Shown here: in pieces, positions 56,232 to 63,379 of the stretch | Layout of the letters: each line of letters opens with the position of its first letter | How positions within the stretch are numbered: the stretch's first letter is position 1 | Program-made: the position numbers and the translations under genes | The notes under the pieces: model-generated | What the model saw: only the letters and a program-made list of their open reading frames with translations | The model's database searches: none | What the model was told of the DNA's origin: nothing | From: Aridibaculum aurantiacum | Lineage (GTDB): Bacteria; Bacteroidota; Bacteroidia; Chitinophagales; Chitinophagaceae | Direction of reading: 5' to 3' | NCBI RefSeq assembly: GCF_017355875.1 | Contig: NZ_JAFEWC010000001.1 | Location: 930,001 to 994,000, forward strand | DNA: 64,000 nt

Positions 56232-56236
56232 AAGAA

Positions 56237-56309
56237 AAAATGTACAAGTAAAAATTAGAAACGTGATGTGAATTTCCGGGAGTGCTGGTTTTACATTTTA
56301 CGTTTTACA
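56237..56309. repeat. Facing heptad repeats in the nuoC-nuoD spacer
   Basis: Left part in 7-bp steps: AAAATGT, ACAAGTA, AAAATTA, GAAACGT (56237-56264). Right part: TTTTACA, TTTTACG, TTTTACA (56289-56309). The arms are reverse-complementary in type and could pair imperfectly around a 24-nt centre. The nuoD start lies 11 bp beyond the right arm. Confidence 0.75.
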
Positions 56310-56320
56310 TTTTTAATGAT

Positions 56321-57559
56321 ATGAATTTAGCAGAACAACAGAAACATCATGTGCGGCTTCCGGATGGAAGTATAGAGAAGACTACAACTACTCTTAATTT
56401 GGGGCCAACGCACCCAGCCACGCATGGTGTGTTTCAAAATATACTAGAGCTGGATGGTGAGCGTATCGTTTCTGCAGAGCAGACGGTAGGGTATATCCAT
56501 CGTGCTTTTGAAAAGATTGCTGAGCGCCGTCCGCTGTACCAGATAACGCCGCTAACGGACCGCCTTAACTATTGCAGCAGCCCGATCAATAATATGGGCT
56601 GGCACCTTACCTGCGAAAAGTTATTAGGTGTGCAAACTCCTAAGCGTGTTGATTACCTGCGTATTATTATTATGGAACTGGCACGTATCTCTGATCACTT
56701 GATTTGTAACTCGGTGATTGGTGTGGATACTGGTGCCTTTACCGGCTTCTTGTATGTAATGCAGTACCGCGAGTTGATCTATGAGATATACGAAGAAGTT
56801 TGCGGATCAAGGCTTACAACCAATATTGGTCGTATAGGTGGTTTTGAAAGAGATTTCAATGATATAGCTTTTAGAAAACTGGAGAAATTCCTGAAAGAAT
56901 ATCCAGCAGTTCTAAAGGAATTTGAAAACCTGTTTGCACGTAACCGCATCTTCATGGAGCGTACAATGGGTGCGGGTCCTATAAGTGCAGAAAGGGCTTT
57001 GAATTATGGATTTACAGGTCCTAACCTGCGTGCTGCAGGTGTGGATTACGATGTACGTGTGCATACGCCTTACTCCAGCTACGAAGACTTTGATTTCAAT
57101 ATACCGGTTGGTAAAACTGGTGATGTATATGACAGGTTCCTGGTGCGCAACCAGGAGATGTGGGAGAGCCTGAAACTGATAGAAGCAGCTTACCGCAAGG
57201 TGCAGGATATGAAAGGAACAGCAGCTGATGTTTACCATGCTGATGTGCCTGAGTATTACCTACCGGCCAAAAAAGATGTGTACACTAAAATGGAAGCATT
57301 GATTTATCACTTCAAGATCATCATGGGTGAGATTGATATGCCTGCCGGGGAAGTGTACCATGCAGTAGAAGGCGGTAATGGCGAACTAGGATTTTACCTG
57401 ATAAGTGATGGAGGACGTGCACCATTCAGGCTGCACTTCCGCAGGCCTTGTTTTATCTACTACCAGGCTTTCAGCGAACTAACAAAAGGCAGCATGCTAA
57501 GCGATGCTATCATTGTTATGAGCTCGCTGAATTTGATTGCTGGAGAGATGGACGCTTAA
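56321..57559 (+). CDS. nuoD: NADH-quinone oxidoreductase subunit D
   Basis: A 412-residue 49-kDa-type subunit forming the quinone site with NuoB. Motifs are LNLGPTHPATHGVFQNILELDGE near residue 30, GYIHRAFEKIAE, LTDRLNYCSSPINNMGW, and the C-terminal VEGGNGELGFYLISDGGRAPFRLHFRRPCF. ATG at 56321 was chosen because it begins the family-like region; the frame upstream runs through the heptad repeat. The stop codon runs straight into the next heptad array. Confidence 0.95.
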   Translation: MNLAEQQKHHVRLPDGSIEKTTTTLNLGPTHPATHGVFQNILELDGERIVSAEQTVGYIHRAFEKIAERRPLYQITPLTDRLNYCSSPINNMGWHLTCEKLLGVQTPKRVDYLRIIIMELARISDHLICNSVIGVDTGAFTGFLYVMQYRELIYEIYEEVCGSRLTTNIGRIGGFERDFNDIAFRKLEKFLKEYPAVLKEFENLFARNRIFMERTMGAGPISAERALNYGFTGPNLRAAGVDYDVRVHTPYSSYEDFDFNIPVGKTGDVYDRFLVRNQEMWESLKLIEAAYRKVQDMKGTAADVYHADVPEYYLPAKKDVYTKMEALIYHFKIIMGEIDMPAGEVYHAVEGGNGELGFYLISDGGRAPFRLHFRRPCFIYYQAFSELTKGSMLSDAIIVMSSLNLIAGEMDA

Positions 57560-57633
57560 AAAATGAAAAATTTAAAATTAAAAATGTAAAACGGCAGCCT
57601 CAGGCTTTTTCATTTTACATTTTACATTTTGCA
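57560..57633. repeat. Facing heptad repeats (hairpin) in the nuoD-nuoE spacer
   Basis: The left arm directly follows the nuoD stop: AAAATGA, AAAATTT, AAAATTA, AAAATGT, AAAACGG (57560-57594). After CAGCCTCAGGC the right arm is TTTTTCA, TTTTACA, TTTTACA, TTTTGCA (57606-57633). The arms are complementary (AAAATGT/ACATTTT) and the centre holds AGCCT-C-AGGCT, so one long hairpin is possible. nuoE begins 7 bp later. Confidence 0.82.
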
Positions 57634-57639
57634 TTATAA

Positions 57640-58140
57640 ATGATACAATTTTCTCAGTACAAGCTTGATAAAGTAAAAGAGATAATAGAACGTTATCCTG
57701 AAGGAAAGCAGAAGAGCGCTTTGCTTCCTGTGCTTCACCTTGCGCAGGAAGAATTTGGTGGCTGGCTGGATGTACCGGTAATGGATTACGTGGCTGAGTT
57801 ACTCAACATCACTCCGATAGAGGTGTATGAAGTGGCTACCTTTTATAGCATGTACAATCTTAAACCTGTAGGGCGTTATGTATTTGAAGTTTGCCAGACA
57901 GGTCCTTGTATGGTAAGAGGCGCTGACAATATAATCAACTACATAAAAGAGAAGTTGAACATAGGAGTAGGTGAAACAACAGAAGATGGAATGTTTACAC
58001 TTAAAGTTGTTGAATGCCTGGGTGCTTGTGGTTATGCTCCCATGATGCAACTAGGGAAGATTTATAAAGAACACCTGACACCAGAAAAGGTGGACCAGAT
58101 CATTTCTGAATGCAGGAATTTTGCTGCTTCAAATAATTAA
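57640..58140 (+). CDS. nuoE: NADH-quinone oxidoreductase subunit E
   Basis: A 166-residue 24-kDa-type subunit with the 2Fe-2S cluster N1a. Cys ligands are in EVCQTGPCMVRGAD near residues 85-90 and VECLGACGYAPMMQ near 126-130. The N-terminal helical part (IIERYPEGKQKSALLPVLHLAQEEFGG) is complete. Two non-nuo genes lie between it and nuoF. Confidence 0.95.
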   Translation: MIQFSQYKLDKVKEIIERYPEGKQKSALLPVLHLAQEEFGGWLDVPVMDYVAELLNITPIEVYEVATFYSMYNLKPVGRYVFEVCQTGPCMVRGADNIINYIKEKLNIGVGETTEDGMFTLKVVECLGACGYAPMMQLGKIYKEHLTPEKVDQIISECRNFAASNN

Positions 58141-59012: not shown

Positions 59013-59085
59013 AAATGAAAAATTAAAAATGAAAAAGTAAAAAGTAGAAGCAAGCCGTTTTGCATTTTACATTTTGCATTTTTCA
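59013..59085. repeat. Facing heptad repeats (hairpin) upstream of nuoF
   Basis: Left arm in 7-bp steps after the stop at 59011: AAATGAA, AAATTAA, AAATGAA, AAAGTAA, AAAGTAG (59013-59047). The centre is AAGCAAGCCG. Right arm: TTTTGCA, TTTTACA, TTTTGCA, TTTTTCA (59058-59085). The arms are complementary in type. nuoF begins 14 bp beyond. Confidence 0.8.
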
Positions 59086-59099
59086 TTCTTTTTATAAAA

Positions 59100-60446
59100 A
59101 TGGCGCAAAAATTATTATTAGCAAACGATCACATTGAAGGCATTCGCTTTTACGATGCGTACCGCAAAAATGGCGGATATGCAGCGGTAGAAAAAGCGTT
59201 CAAAATGTCACCGAATGATATAGTTGAGGAGGTGAAGAAGAGCGGTCTTCGTGGCCGTGGTGGTGCGGGTTTCCCAACAGGATTGAAGTGGAGCTTTTTG
59301 GCTAAGCCGGAAGGTGTGCCTCGTTACCTGGTGTGCAATGCAGATGAGAGTGAGCCTGGAACATTTAAGGACAGGTACCTGATGGAGTTCATTCCTCACC
59401 TGCTCATCGAAGGATTGATTGTATCATCCTTTGCACTTGGCAGTAACAGGACCTACATCTACATCCGCGGTGAATATGCATGGATTGTAGACATACTCGA
59501 ACAAGCTATTGCTGAAGCCAACCAAAACGGATGGCTCGGTAAAAATATTCTAGGAACCGGCTTCGACTGCCAGATCTATGTGCAGCGAGGAGCAGGTGCT
59601 TATATCTGTGGTGAAGAAACTGCATTGATTGAAAGCCTGGAAGGGAAGCGTGGTAATCCACGTATCAAACCTCCGTTCCCGGCTATTAAAGGATTGTGGG
59701 ATTGCCCTACAGTGGTTAACAATGTTGAGACCTTAGCCGCTATTGTTCCAATCATGAACATGGGTGGCGAAGAGTATGCAAAGATTGGTGTAGGTAAATC
59801 AACAGGTACAAAATTGATCAGTGCGTGTGGCAACATCAACAAGCCAGGTGTCTATGAAATAGACATGACTGTTAGTGTTGAAGAGTTCATCTACAGCGAC
59901 GAATACTGCGGAGGTATACCTAACGGCAAAAGACTGAAAGCTTGTATCCCGGGAGGTTCTTCCGTACCTATTCTTCCTGCTAACCTGCTGCTAAAAACAG
60001 CAAAAGGCGAAACAAGATACATGAACTACGAGAGTCTTGCCGACGGTGGTTTCGCTACCGGAAGTATGATGGGTTCTGGCGGTTTTGAAGTATTAGACGA
60101 AGACCAGTGTATTGTAAAACATACATTGACTTTAGCCCGCTTCTACCACCACGAAAGCTGTGGCCAATGTAGCCCATGCCGTGAAGGTACAGGCTGGATG
60201 AAGCGTGTATTGTACAACCTGGAATTTGGTAAAGGAAAGCTGAGTGACATAGACCTGCTGTGGGATATCCAGAGAAGGATTGAAGGAAACACCATCTGTC
60301 CATTAGGCGATGCCGCCGCATGGCCAGTAGCAGCAGCCATCCGCCACTTCAGAGATGAATTTGAATGGCACGTAACACATGCAGAAGAAGCACAGACCAG
60401 GAATTTTGGATTGGCGCATTATGCGGATGAATTGCAAGCTGTGTAA
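59100..60446 (+). CDS. nuoF: NADH-quinone oxidoreductase subunit F
   Basis: A 448-residue 51-kDa-type subunit that oxidises NADH with FMN and passes electrons to cluster N3. Motifs are GLRGRGGAGFPTGLKW (NADH site, near residue 49), CNADESEPGTFKDRYLM (FMN), GAGAYICGEETALIESLEG near 165, and the 4Fe-4S ligands in HHESCGQCSPCREGTGWM near 350 plus TICPLGDAAAWP near 397. The length is normal. Its stop codon is the first part of a perfect 20-bp inverted repeat that flanks the next gene. Confidence 0.96.
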   Translation: MAQKLLLANDHIEGIRFYDAYRKNGGYAAVEKAFKMSPNDIVEEVKKSGLRGRGGAGFPTGLKWSFLAKPEGVPRYLVCNADESEPGTFKDRYLMEFIPHLLIEGLIVSSFALGSNRTYIYIRGEYAWIVDILEQAIAEANQNGWLGKNILGTGFDCQIYVQRGAGAYICGEETALIESLEGKRGNPRIKPPFPAIKGLWDCPTVVNNVETLAAIVPIMNMGGEEYAKIGVGKSTGTKLISACGNINKPGVYEIDMTVSVEEFIYSDEYCGGIPNGKRLKACIPGGSSVPILPANLLLKTAKGETRYMNYESLADGGFATGSMMGSGGFEVLDEDQCIVKHTLTLARFYHHESCGQCSPCREGTGWMKRVLYNLEFGKGKLSDIDLLWDIQRRIEGNTICPLGDAAAWPVAAAIRHFRDEFEWHVTHAEEAQTRNFGLAHYADELQAV

Positions 60447-60877
60447 ATGCAAAATGAAAAATGCAAAATGAAAAAATGACAACAGTCGAAGAAGGTGAAA
60501 AGCCTTATAACATTCGACATCGTTGTTTTCATTTTTCAAAGAGCGTTATTCATTTTGTAAAGAATTGCACATACGAGAAAATATATGTCTCCATGTTTGA
60601 CCAGCTTTTGAGAAGTGCAACTTCGATAGGAGCTAATATGGTAGAAGGAGGGGCTGGCAGTACAAACAAAGATTTCATCAACTTCATGCATATCAGCTTG
60701 AAGTCGACTAATGAAACAAAATATTGGCTGTGTTTGATTAGGGAGACATTAGTAGTAAATGAAAAGGTTGTAAATGATTTGATCAAGGAAGCAAATGAAC
60801 TATCGAAAATTATTGCTCAGATCATTATCAACGCAAAGAGGTAGGTTTTACATTTTACATTTTTCATTTTGCATTTA
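60444..60877. repeat. Perfect 20-bp inverted repeat flanking a four-helix-bundle gene
   Basis: TAAATGCAAAATGAAAAATG at 60444-60463 is repeated exactly in reverse complement at 60858-60877. Both ends are parts of heptad arrays. On the left these are AAAATGA, AAAATGC, AAAATGA (60451-60471); on the right TTTTACA, TTTTACA, TTTTTCA, TTTTGCA (60846-60873). The left copy starts with the nuoF stop codon and contains the putative start of the inner gene; the right copy ends 1 bp before the nuoG start codon. In the other nuo spacers similar arms face each other across only 10-24 bp. Here a 384-bp gene takes the place of that loop, so the unit looks like an insertion into, or an expanded form of, the spacer hairpin. 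Confidence 0.75.
60461..60844 (+). CDS. Four-helix-bundle protein (23S rRNA IVP / S23 family)
   Basis: A 127-residue protein (or 122 from the ATG at 60476) with the TIGR02436/S23 pattern: YNIRHRCFHFSKSVIHFVKNC, then FDQLLRSATSIGANMVEGGAGSTNKDFINFMHISLKSTNETKYWLCLIRET, the most conserved part, and a closing helix NDLIKEANELSKIIAQIIINAKR. Relatives are encoded inside intervening sequences of 23S rRNA genes, as dispersed chromosomal copies in Bacteroidota, and as the Avd partner in diversity-generating retroelements. Its function is unknown; nucleic-acid binding is likely since the bundle is basic in relatives. The gene sits between nuoF and nuoG, flanked by perfect inverted repeats. No reverse transcriptase is nearby. 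Confidence 0.9.
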   Translation: MQNEKMTTVEEGEKPYNIRHRCFHFSKSVIHFVKNCTYEKIYVSMFDQLLRSATSIGANMVEGGAGSTNKDFINFMHISLKSTNETKYWLCLIRETLVVNEKVVNDLIKEANELSKIIAQIIINAKR

Positions 60878-60878
60878 A

Positions 60879-61982
60879 ATGAGTGAACAATTATTTAAAG
60901 TAACCATAGACAACATCACCGTAGAAGTGGAGCCGGGGACGACGATCTTGCTGGCTGCGCGGAAGATTGGTGGTGATGTAACGCCGCCGGCGATGTGTTT
61001 TTACAGCAAGCTGAAGGGTAGTGGCGGTAAATGTCGTACATGTTTGGTGGAGGTAGCTGCAGGTTCTGCGGCCGACCCACGTCCAATGCCTAAGTTGGTG
61101 GCTAGCTGCCGTACCAATGTAATGGACGGAATGGTTGTAAAAAGCATCACCAGCGAAAAAGTATTGGATGCACGTAAAGGTGTGGTTGAATTCTTACTGC
61201 TTAACCACCCTCTGGATTGCCCTATATGCGACCAGGCCGGCGAATGTCACCTGCAGGATCTGAGCTACGAGCATGGCAGCGAAGGCACACGCTACGAGTT
61301 TCAGCGCAGGCTATTCGAGCGTGAGGACATCGGGCCTTACATCCAGCTGCACATGACACGTTGTATCCTTTGCTACCGCTGTACTTATGTAGCAGACCAG
61401 CTTACGGATAAGCGTGTGCACGGCATTCTGGATCGCGGCGAACACGCTGAGATATCAACTTATATATCTAAAGCCATCGACAACGACTTTAGCGGAAACA
61501 TGATTGACGTATGCCCGGTTGGAGCATTGACCGATCGCACCTTCCGCTTCAAGCAGCGTGTGTGGTTCCTGAAGCCGATGAACGCACACCGCGACTGCGA
61601 CAAATGCTGCGGCAAGGTGACGCTGTGGAACCGTGGAGATGAAGTTTTCCGTGTTACAGCACGCAAAGATGAATGGGGTGAAGTAGAGGATGTAGATGGC
61701 AAAACAGGATGGATCTGTAATACCTGCCGCTTCGACAAGAAGCGTTCAAGCGATTGGGTGATTGAAGGTCCACGTAAAATCAGCCGTCACTCTGTGATTT
61801 CTGCAGGCCACTACGAGAAAATAAAGAAGCCAACCGAGGTGATGGAGCAGTTGATGGGACAGAAGCCAAGACTGTTGATGGATATTCACCAGGTAAGCGA
61901 GGTAAACAAGCCGGGTGTACACCTGAGCGAGTTGCCCGGGCCGCCTAAAAAAGATGTATACGAAGGTGGTAACCAGCAGTAG
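60879..61982 (+). CDS. nuoG: NADH-quinone oxidoreductase subunit G, short form
   Basis: A 367-residue Fe-S subunit. Residues 1-95 are a 2Fe-2S ferredoxin domain (PAMCFY, GGKCRTCLVE, ASCRT). Next is the His/Cys 4Fe-4S motif HPLDCPICDQAGECHLQD near 110-125, then TRCILCYRCTYVADQ near 160 and MIDVCPVGALTDRTFRF near 215, and further Cys pairs DCDKCCG near 240 and WICNTCRFDKK near 277. The large molybdopterin-like domain of classical NuoG is absent. I know this short form from Bacteroidota complex I, so I do not regard it as a truncation. It starts 1 bp after the inverted repeat. Confidence 0.92.
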   Translation: MSEQLFKVTIDNITVEVEPGTTILLAARKIGGDVTPPAMCFYSKLKGSGGKCRTCLVEVAAGSAADPRPMPKLVASCRTNVMDGMVVKSITSEKVLDARKGVVEFLLLNHPLDCPICDQAGECHLQDLSYEHGSEGTRYEFQRRLFEREDIGPYIQLHMTRCILCYRCTYVADQLTDKRVHGILDRGEHAEISTYISKAIDNDFSGNMIDVCPVGALTDRTFRFKQRVWFLKPMNAHRDCDKCCGKVTLWNRGDEVFRVTARKDEWGEVEDVDGKTGWICNTCRFDKKRSSDWVIEGPRKISRHSVISAGHYEKIKKPTEVMEQLMGQKPRLLMDIHQVSEVNKPGVHLSELPGPPKKDVYEGGNQQ

Positions 61983-63164: not shown

Positions 63165-63379
63165 AGTTTGAGGTTTGAAGTTTGATGTTCGAAGTCAAAA
63201 TTCAAAAGTCAAAAAACTGAACCGTTGAGTTGTGAGAAGAAAGTTGAAGTGTGCGACGCAACGATGATGAGGAAGGATTCGCTGCTGGCTACATAAAGAT
63301 ATGTGAGCTTATAACGTGCGACACGTTTATTAGCAGCATTTGAAATGCAGGTTTTGCTTTTTGAATTTTGCCTTTTGAA
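63165..63379. repeat. Facing heptad repeats with a 131-bp core in the nuoH-nuoI spacer
   Basis: The 303-bp spacer between nuoH and nuoI holds no gene. 63165-63220 is eight exact heptads: AGTTTGA, GGTTTGA, AGTTTGA, TGTTCGA, AGTCAAA, ATTCAAA, AGTCAAA, AAACTGA. 63352-63379 is four more in the facing sense: TTTTGCT, TTTTGAA, TTTTGCC, TTTTGAA. The TTCAAAA and TTTTGAA words are complementary. The core at 63221-63351 has small dyads: ACGTG-cga-CACGT near 63313-63326, GCATTT-g-AAATGC at 63336-63348, and GCTGCT/AGCAGC. No reading frame of note is present in it. Confidence 0.78.

Follow-up and report, generated by a model that had tools for sequence, protein, structure and literature searches.

In the 23S rRNA of Coxiella, the intervening sequence (IVS) carries an S23 open reading frame (ORF) within 28-bp terminal inverted repeats, has tandem GACAGAT heptamers before the ORF (three, or two in some strains) and is cut by RNase III at the first repeat, as set out in the sections of PMC4990558 dealing with this IVS. 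The same paper presents the Xanthomonas S23p as a toroidal homopentamer and describes S23/IVP proteins as having solved structures and no known function (PMC4990558). Here, we analysed a stretch of 64 000 nucleotides of the Aridibaculum aurantiacum genome (contig NZ_JAFEWC010000001.1, positions 930 001 to 994 000; ‘the window’), in which an S23/IVP gene lies between nuoF and nuoG, outside any rRNA gene, and is bounded by two facing tandem arrays of a heptad (‘arms’). Comparison of this locus with S23 loci of other genomes strongly suggests that the gene and both arms constitute one genetic unit. Like the 23S rRNA IVS as portrayed in the sections mentioned, the window element has an S23 ORF within terminal inverted repeats, includes tandem heptamers and occurs sporadically at a conserved site, and the Coxiella GACAGAT contains the A-G core that S23 arms have. 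Unlike the 23S rRNA IVS, the S23 cassettes described here are found between protein-coding cistrons, possess arrays on both sides with a lineage-specific unit, are exchanged as cassettes and lack an RNA-pairing signature.

Small genes placed between inverted repeats of their own type, with gene-less repeat copies elsewhere, are also characteristic of RAYT/REP systems; the window S23 protein differs in having no Y1 (HUH) domain by Pfam. Y1 transposases were present in 13 of 14 S23-rich genomes. RAYT/Y1 was rejected as a partner because two of the five Y1_Tnp matches of the A. aurantiacum genome, when examined, had unrelated palindromes: these RAYT-like genes (C1:904231-904677 and C3:313919-314371; L228 and L243) stand among REP-like palindromes (GTTCCGTAGGAAC; CCTCGCCTTTAAAGGCGAGG) and form a separate system. 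Heptamers of the sequence TAACTGA, intergenic and mostly adjoining start codons, are described from Beggiatoaceae, Cyanobacteria and some Bacteroidetes in the main text of PMC4679880, in which ‘S23’ occurs 0 times. They differ from S23 arms in being mainly direct repeats of one fixed sequence (PMC4679880); as the complement of TAACTGA fits AGTNNNN in right-arm orientation, we infer a link. A Porphyromonas MITE (miniature inverted-repeat transposable element) with 23-nt repeats proved unrelated in the part of PMC4596501 that presents it. In the open-access papers searched, to judge from their titles, abstract openings and selected passages, no S23 genes with facing arrays outside rRNA were described, a scope that takes in few subscription papers and does not prove novelty.

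The nuoF–nuoG cassette and S23 loci of other genomes

The exact 20-bp inverted repeat claimed in the initial annotation was found at positions 60444–60463 and 60858–60877, and only one further exact 20-bp inverted pair exists in the 64 kb, a local palindrome (54760/54762). By alignment, the arms are 32 nt each, 94% complementary and 370 nt apart (Table 1). The unit ends had also been placed correctly, with the left arm running from the nuoF stop codon and the right arm extending to 1 bp before the nuoG ATG (60879), and so had the size of the gene (122–127 residues), which is an ORF of 127 aa or, from a second ATG (60476), of 122 aa. The ORF matched PF05635 with 83.2 bits (cut-off 33.8) and TIGR02436 with 90.3 bits (cut-off 24). 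It is the single ORF of the cassette and PF05635 its only Pfam family; no transposase gene was detected in the cassette (ORF list and Pfam) and no nuclease domain in the protein (Pfam and NCBIfam). Terminal inverted repeats and heptamers around an S23 ORF, by which an IVS is recognized, are hence present at the window locus. The arm pair scored 54, as compared with a mean of 19 and a maximum of 35 for 5000 dinucleotide shuffles of both 60-nt ends. In a gene-sized test covering 1.24 Mb sampled from the same genome, scores of at least 32 were obtained around 3 of 116 other ORFs of 100–160 aa and, by the same procedure, around 4 of 8 S23 genes.

An AlphaFold2 model built from 46 S23 proteins (pLDDT 91) showed four helices. 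The nearest solved folds were the S23-family structures 2rld and 2gsc, with five chains apiece, and next, if a single talin domain of lower TM-score is disregarded, came 4dwl, the structure of Avd. This pentameric accessory protein of diversity-generating retroelements (4dwl, 8ub7) has the same fold as S23 (Foldseek TMq ∼0.7, E-values 0.08–0.2). A dependence on reverse transcriptase, as the likeness to Avd might imply, is disfavoured because 8 of the 14 S23-rich genomes examined had no RVT_1 match; the only one in the A. aurantiacum genome (C1:2810463-2810900) is far from the window (C1:930001-994000).

The A. aurantiacum genome (G000) contains nine PF05635 matches, and 116 of 148 genomes of the same phylum, each at least 95% complete, have at least one, with up to 16 per genome. 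Facing arms were sought by aligning the 250 nt upstream of the S23 gene to the complement of the 300 nt downstream, with mismatched left–right pairs from different loci as the null. Eight of the nine S23 genes of the A. aurantiacum genome were compared in this way; seven exceeded the 95th percentile of mismatched pairs, so that facing arms are found at other S23 genes of this genome too, and the eighth (L001) has its facing arms farther out, 659 nt apart. Over 56 loci, true pairs averaged 34.1 against 19.0 for mismatched ones (43 above the 95th and 30 above the 99th percentile), and among 77 named loci from many phyla, which remained after three of 80 had been dropped for short flanks, the averages were 44.7 and 18.1 (67 above the 95th and 47 above the 99th percentile). 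Arms were likewise present at 32 of 40 further loci from S23-rich genomes. When all 173 loci with long enough flanks were pooled (three more were too short), 150 reached a score of at least 28 and 134 a score of at least 32, as against 4.9% of 6000 sampled mismatched pairs and 2.1% of mismatched pairs, respectively; a few of the 150 may be chance passes. The proposal that gene plus arms form one small element akin to rRNA intervening sequences is supported by these results and turns out to be general.

Both neighbours were co-directional with S23 at 106 and both opposite at 15 of the 144 loci (of 150) at which both were visible, ORFs being called by length only. Among 134 loci examined, an upstream stop codon was identified for 119, and at 95 of these the outer end of the left arm lay within 15 nt of it; the right arm ended within 15 nt of an ATG at 72 of 103. 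None of the 80 named S23 loci matched rRNA. At least nine S23 genes bearing a stop codon were noted among the matches listed. An S23 query (L092) had no match among 50 697 phage records, by which phage carriage is disfavoured, and matched 29 of 72 556 plasmid records. From six of these 29, cyanobacterial plasmid loci were fetched, about four of them independent, and all six have arms. On an Anabaena plasmid (L381) the S23 cassette lies inside a type I-D cas run (cas6-S23-cas4-cas1d), and on a Nostoc plasmid (L380) it is antisense between ribonucleotide reductase genes.

Repeat unit, period and their relation to the S23 protein

Left-arm identity was 0.645, 0.658 and 0.64 at lags of 7, 14 and 21 nt, respectively, and 0.24–0.31 at all other lags up to 22 (118 of 136 loci). 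For this analysis, as for those of units, lineages and drift, the arms were chosen by left–right similarity. In phase-aligned form, the unit combines A-G-T (A 0.78, G 0.77, T 0.55) with four variable positions after it, and its profile was more informative than each of 20 column-permuted controls. After removal of near-duplicates, 111 arms contained 100 distinct units; the window's own AATGCAA/AATGAAA deviates from the A-G core. The period, called for 147 of the 150 loci, was 7 in 120, 8 in 25, 9 in one and 6 in one, and a uniform period-7 description was dropped since the site studied in genus g57 (see below) has period 8. Four or five units were counted in 86 of 134 left and 90 of 134 right arms, using a 7-nt step throughout, which makes the counts approximate for period-8 loci; a homopentamer such as S23p would fit about five repeat units per arm. 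Strand polarity is shared, G exceeding C in 105 of 118 left arms, and base composition is mirrored (left G 0.297 and C 0.107, right C 0.298 and G 0.107), with the A-G grammar equally strict in both arms. At one locus (L296, G119) the right array consists of eight exact copies of an 8-nt unit (TTCAGGAG) next to a weak left arm, indicating a one-sided expansion.

Between different genomes, the similarity of left-arm units was 0.64 for S23 proteins at least 70% identical (45 pairs), 0.46 at 50–70% and 0.42 below 50%, as compared with 0.44 for S23 paralogues of the same genome below 50% identity (84 pairs), a 7-column profile being used for every locus, period-8 ones included. The idea that all arms derive from one heptad common to the genome was therefore rejected (0.44 versus 0.42), and the single shared heptad supposed at the outset did not hold up, as the unit is particular to each S23 lineage. 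On a tree of 108 S23 proteins, thinned at 65% identity, the period changed 10 times, as against a mean of 17.7 and a minimum of 14 in 300 label shuffles, none of which was as low; the tree was built from few columns and 51 of its 105 inner branches are open. In one supported clade (98), all eight proteins belong to period-8 loci although the clade spans three phyla: besides proteins from the window's phylum and from named Bacteroidota, it includes those of a Lambdaproteobacterium (placed in Pseudomonadota by its record) and of Desulfobacteraceae. Period and unit thus go with the lineage of the S23 protein and not with the host genome.

Across species, arms of the same side diverged, with similarities of 0.83 for proteins at least 90% identical, 0.64 at 75–90% and 0.53 below 75%, while left–right similarity within a locus was 0.65, 0.67 and 0.69 over the same classes (50 of 52 hand-picked orthologous pairs, two with weak arms being skipped). 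The unit thus drifts, yet the two arms of a locus seem to keep their match with one another. What is probably a recent event of this kind was seen in G108, where the arms of L312 match each other at 29 of 30 positions and both have changed from those of two relatives (L292 and L303), the flanks beside the rewritten arms being nearly unchanged. At the g57 site, for which fixed windows were used, left and right arms of 30 genomes agreed on CA-type or CT-type units (Spearman 0.88) and were uncorrelated at the adjacent A/G position (Spearman 0.12), shared descent of the genomes contributing to these correlations. The matched arm scores at this site summed to 1189 versus 874 (standard deviation 48) with right arms permuted, and none of 10 000 permutations was as high.

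Gain, loss and exchange of cassettes

Of 30 nuoF–nuoG loci fetched, the window's among them, 27 had nuoF in reach, and S23 occupied the spacer in three, namely in the A. aurantiacum genome, G003 and G012; the gene is not a constant constituent of the operon in relatives, which the initial annotation had named as a finding that would refute its idea if all of them had it. The other spacers contained a PF13366-type gene (six), other ORFs (three) or no ORF of 90 aa (15).

Presence and absence were followed in depth in genus g57, where the region surrounding one S23 site has a match in 120 of 121 genomes. The sample fetched comprised 30 genomes with S23 and 20 with separately matching flanks. All 20 of the latter lacked S23 and had spacers of 57–211 nt; by eye, at least ten of these contain gene-less facing arrays of other units, some with three units only, and five are filled by an unrelated repeat. 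In G209, G270, G317 and G292 (L358, L359, L361 and L368), this repeat resembles CTCTCCAAAGGAGAGGGAG. On a tree of the flanking genes of the 50 genomes, S23 presence or absence changed at least eight times. Arm type was assigned by what most units of a locus showed, and L343, whose left arm is split 2:2, was set aside. It changed eight times on the flank tree as against a single change on the tree of the S23 proteins, which covers 27 of the 30 (three were too short), and six of the eight exchanges rest on supported branches. The residue found at position 86 was in accord with arm type in 29 of 29 cases, one of which is a gap counted as ‘not F/Y’, and six independent pairs on well-supported branches all pointed in the same direction (sign test, p 0.031).

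The borders of the exchanged segments were sharp. In G208 and G081, the flanks by the cassette are nearly identical (upstream ∼100%, downstream 93–100%), while S23 types and arms differ, and identity breaks at the stop codon on one side and at the start codon on the other. Two other pairs gave a similar picture at lower flank identity. Within a clade of 20 genomes, near-minus-far divergence by the cassette was −0.017 for swapped (84) and −0.013 for unswapped pairs (106). Since divergence is not raised beside swapped cassettes, these are unlikely to have come in by ordinary import of a longer tract, and the swapping of an S23 type together with its own arm type, with borders at the codons, argues strongly for the gene and both arms being one unit. 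It was thus at the g57 site, and not at the window's, that gain and loss were seen to recur with precision in one fixed place, as expected of homing-type elements.

The PF13366-type genes (PDDEXK_3, PD-(D/E)XK, ‘GxxExxY’) were those of G008, G018, G045, G050, G019 and G010 (L036, L040, L046, L050, L053 and L058; two of the six were Pfam-checked) and lie, by eye, mostly between facing CGCAAAGG-like repeats. Elsewhere, 18 of 28 PF13366 genes were flanked by facing CACAGAG/CGCAAAG-like arms above the 95th percentile, two of 30 having been dropped because of short contigs. These cassettes resemble the S23 cassette in consisting of a small gene between facing arrays and in using the same nuoF–nuoG spacer, and differ from it in the CACAGAG/CGCAAAG motif, a spacing of about 8–10 nt, the lack of a lag-7 peak and a protein of a nuclease superfamily. 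To judge from the genomes compared, they would represent a second, parallel element class. Four short spacers (G005, G009, G049 and G046; L034, L035, L047 and L052) end, by eye, like a PF13366 right arm and may be what is left where the gene has been lost.

The facing arms remarked on initially in three further nuo spacers are real, with the gaps being 14–28 nt, depending on how they are aligned, instead of the 10–24 nt first given (Table 1). Facing arrays of a GTCAAAA unit occur at window positions 63192–63214 and just past the window (G000 C1 994010-994081). In the 1.24 Mb sampled, 88 period-7 arrays were counted, along with six of period 8 and three of period 9. Of these arrays, 21 are similar to the window's unit and another 21 to GTCAAAA/TTCAAAA, a unit that the nuo S23 of G012 has but none of the eight A. 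aurantiacum S23 genes compared.

Table 1. Positions in the window of the S23 cassette, its neighbouring cistrons and gene-less facing arrays.
Feature	Position	Strand	Description
Left arm	60444..60475	+	heptad array, AATGCAA/AATGAAA units; start = nuoF stop codon
S23/IVP four-helix-bundle gene	60461..60844	+	PF05635, TIGR02436, AlphaFold2
Right arm	60846..60877	-	same heptad array as left arm, facing; end 1 bp before nuoG start
nuoF, upstream cistron	59100..60446	+	Complex1_51K, NADH_4Fe-4S
nuoG, downstream cistron	60879..61982	+	Fer4_Nqo3, NADH-G_4Fe-4S_3, Fer2_4
Gene-less facing arrays	56236..56314	.	AATGCAA/AATGAAA unit type; arms 56236-56262 / 56288-56314
Gene-less facing arrays	57559..57652	.	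AATGCAA/AATGAAA unit type; two inverted-repeat pairs
Gene-less facing arrays	59014..59087	.	AATGCAA/AATGAAA unit type; arms 59014-59043 / 59058-59087

Possible explanations for the facing arrays

We consider it probable, though with considerable reservation, that these loci represent a widespread compact S23 element whose protein reads its own arrays as DNA, which is targeted in a homing-like manner and of which the IVS is one form. The sequence comparisons show that the S23 gene and its two facing tandem arrays, which have an A-G core, a period of 7 or 8 nt and typically four to five units per arm, behave as a single genetic unit. As a rule, this unit takes up the whole spacer between two cistrons, beginning by the stop codon of the first and ending by the start codon of the second. 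The S23 pentamer would recognize its own arrays as DNA, perhaps with one subunit per repeat; this recognition would keep the arms matched and would also direct the cassette to empty or occupied spacers, and the strand-transfer or repair step moving it would probably be a host activity. The 23S rRNA IVS would be the same element placed in an rRNA helix instead of between cistrons, and indeed looks like a special case of the inter-cistronic element. That the S23 protein recognizes the arrays is, as a prediction from the comparisons above, likely, since binding of S23 to its arms fits a period and unit that follow the protein lineage.

Several observations weigh against this explanation. No clear arms were found at 23 of the 173 loci at the threshold of 28, where about 5% pass by chance, and picking arms by left–right similarity inflates the within-locus values, the fall across species not being affected. 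Descent is mainly vertical: among 97 S23 pairs at least 65% identical, flanks were homologous on both sides in 73, on one side in four and on neither in 20. The element does not behave like a multicopy transposon, given that an identity of 65% is reached by no more than three same-genome pairs of the S23 genes fetched (74%, 69% and 68%, all of one subfamily). At g57, 15 of the 47 inner branches of the flanking-gene tree are unsupported, the link between arm type and protein type amounts to one change on the S23 tree, and co-inheritance alone explains the residue association. Finally, precise gain, loss and exchange were examined in depth at this one site.

The best placed of the alternatives, itself unlikely in our view, is an RNA-level IVS, in which the arrays are kept by pairing in the transcript and RNase III frees the S23 RNA from a polycistronic mRNA. 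The Coxiella precedent, with S23, 28-bp terminal inverted repeats, GACAGAT heptamers and RNase III excision in the sections of PMC4990558 devoted to it, would speak for this, as would the prevalence of sense over antisense orientation (106 versus 15) and the complementarity that facing arms have in any transcript. However, the mismatches between arms showed no preference for G-U pairs, 129 being wobble-compatible and 169 non-wobble transitions, or 137 and 155, respectively, in a larger set taken from the equal-length arms of the 150 loci. Selection for an RNA hairpin is thus not supported, and neither is the initial suggestion of RNA processing at the stem, as there is no excess of G-U-compatible mismatches. 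Together with the equal strictness of the A-G grammar in left and right arms, the missing G-U bias points to DNA rather than RNA as the target, and the lack of an rRNA match at all 80 named loci likewise stands against the RNA-level explanation.

Slightly less plausible again are passive repeats, that is, slippage arrays in tolerant spacers whose arms are homogenized by inverted-repeat template switching and in which S23 is a passenger. The period-7 arrays of the A. aurantiacum genome (88 in 1.24 Mb) do far outnumber its S23 genes, and both the recent rewriting between arms (L312 versus L292/L303) and the eight exact copies in the right array of L296 are what such processes would produce. Passive repeats would nevertheless hardly track the S23 lineage across phyla in period and unit, be rare at other genes of 100–160 aa (3 of 116) or travel with the gene in exchanges. 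The A/T position of the g57 unit being in step in both arms (rho 0.88) when the neighbouring A/G position is not (rho 0.12) also argues against them, although this contrast could also be explained by homogenization slower than transitions and faster than transversions. An autoregulated stand-alone gene (e.g. a regulator or a toxin-antitoxin-like module), with the arms as operators and ordinary homologous recombination between strains, would account for the low copy number, the mainly vertical inheritance and the matched sites on both sides, but is improbable in view of presence/absence and swaps without raised divergence by the cassette, the S23 genes with a stop codon (at least nine among the matches listed), a window cassette of one S23 ORF and gene-less facing arrays seen by eye at the g57 site in at least ten genomes.

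The S23 element reading its own arrays as DNA is accordingly the explanation we retain, and we regard the element as a general form of intervening sequence that is new, and possibly as a class of its own. A bolder version, which we advance only tentatively, would make S23 elements a distinct mobile class without a recognizable transposase, in which the pentamer counts repeats in DNA in 7- or 8-nt steps, each subunit taking one unit, and in which this recognition by itself would lead the replication or repair machinery of the host to put in, take out or exchange the cassette, with the IVS and the scattered short-heptamer arrays of Bacteroidota, Cyanobacteria and Beggiatoaceae as satellites. The locus-specific matched arrays provide each S23 protein with a predicted target sequence. 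They may also explain heptamer repeats that have been described in several phyla without a cause, and suggest that an element located between cistrons is much the commoner form, of which the intervening sequences of rRNA make up a minor part.

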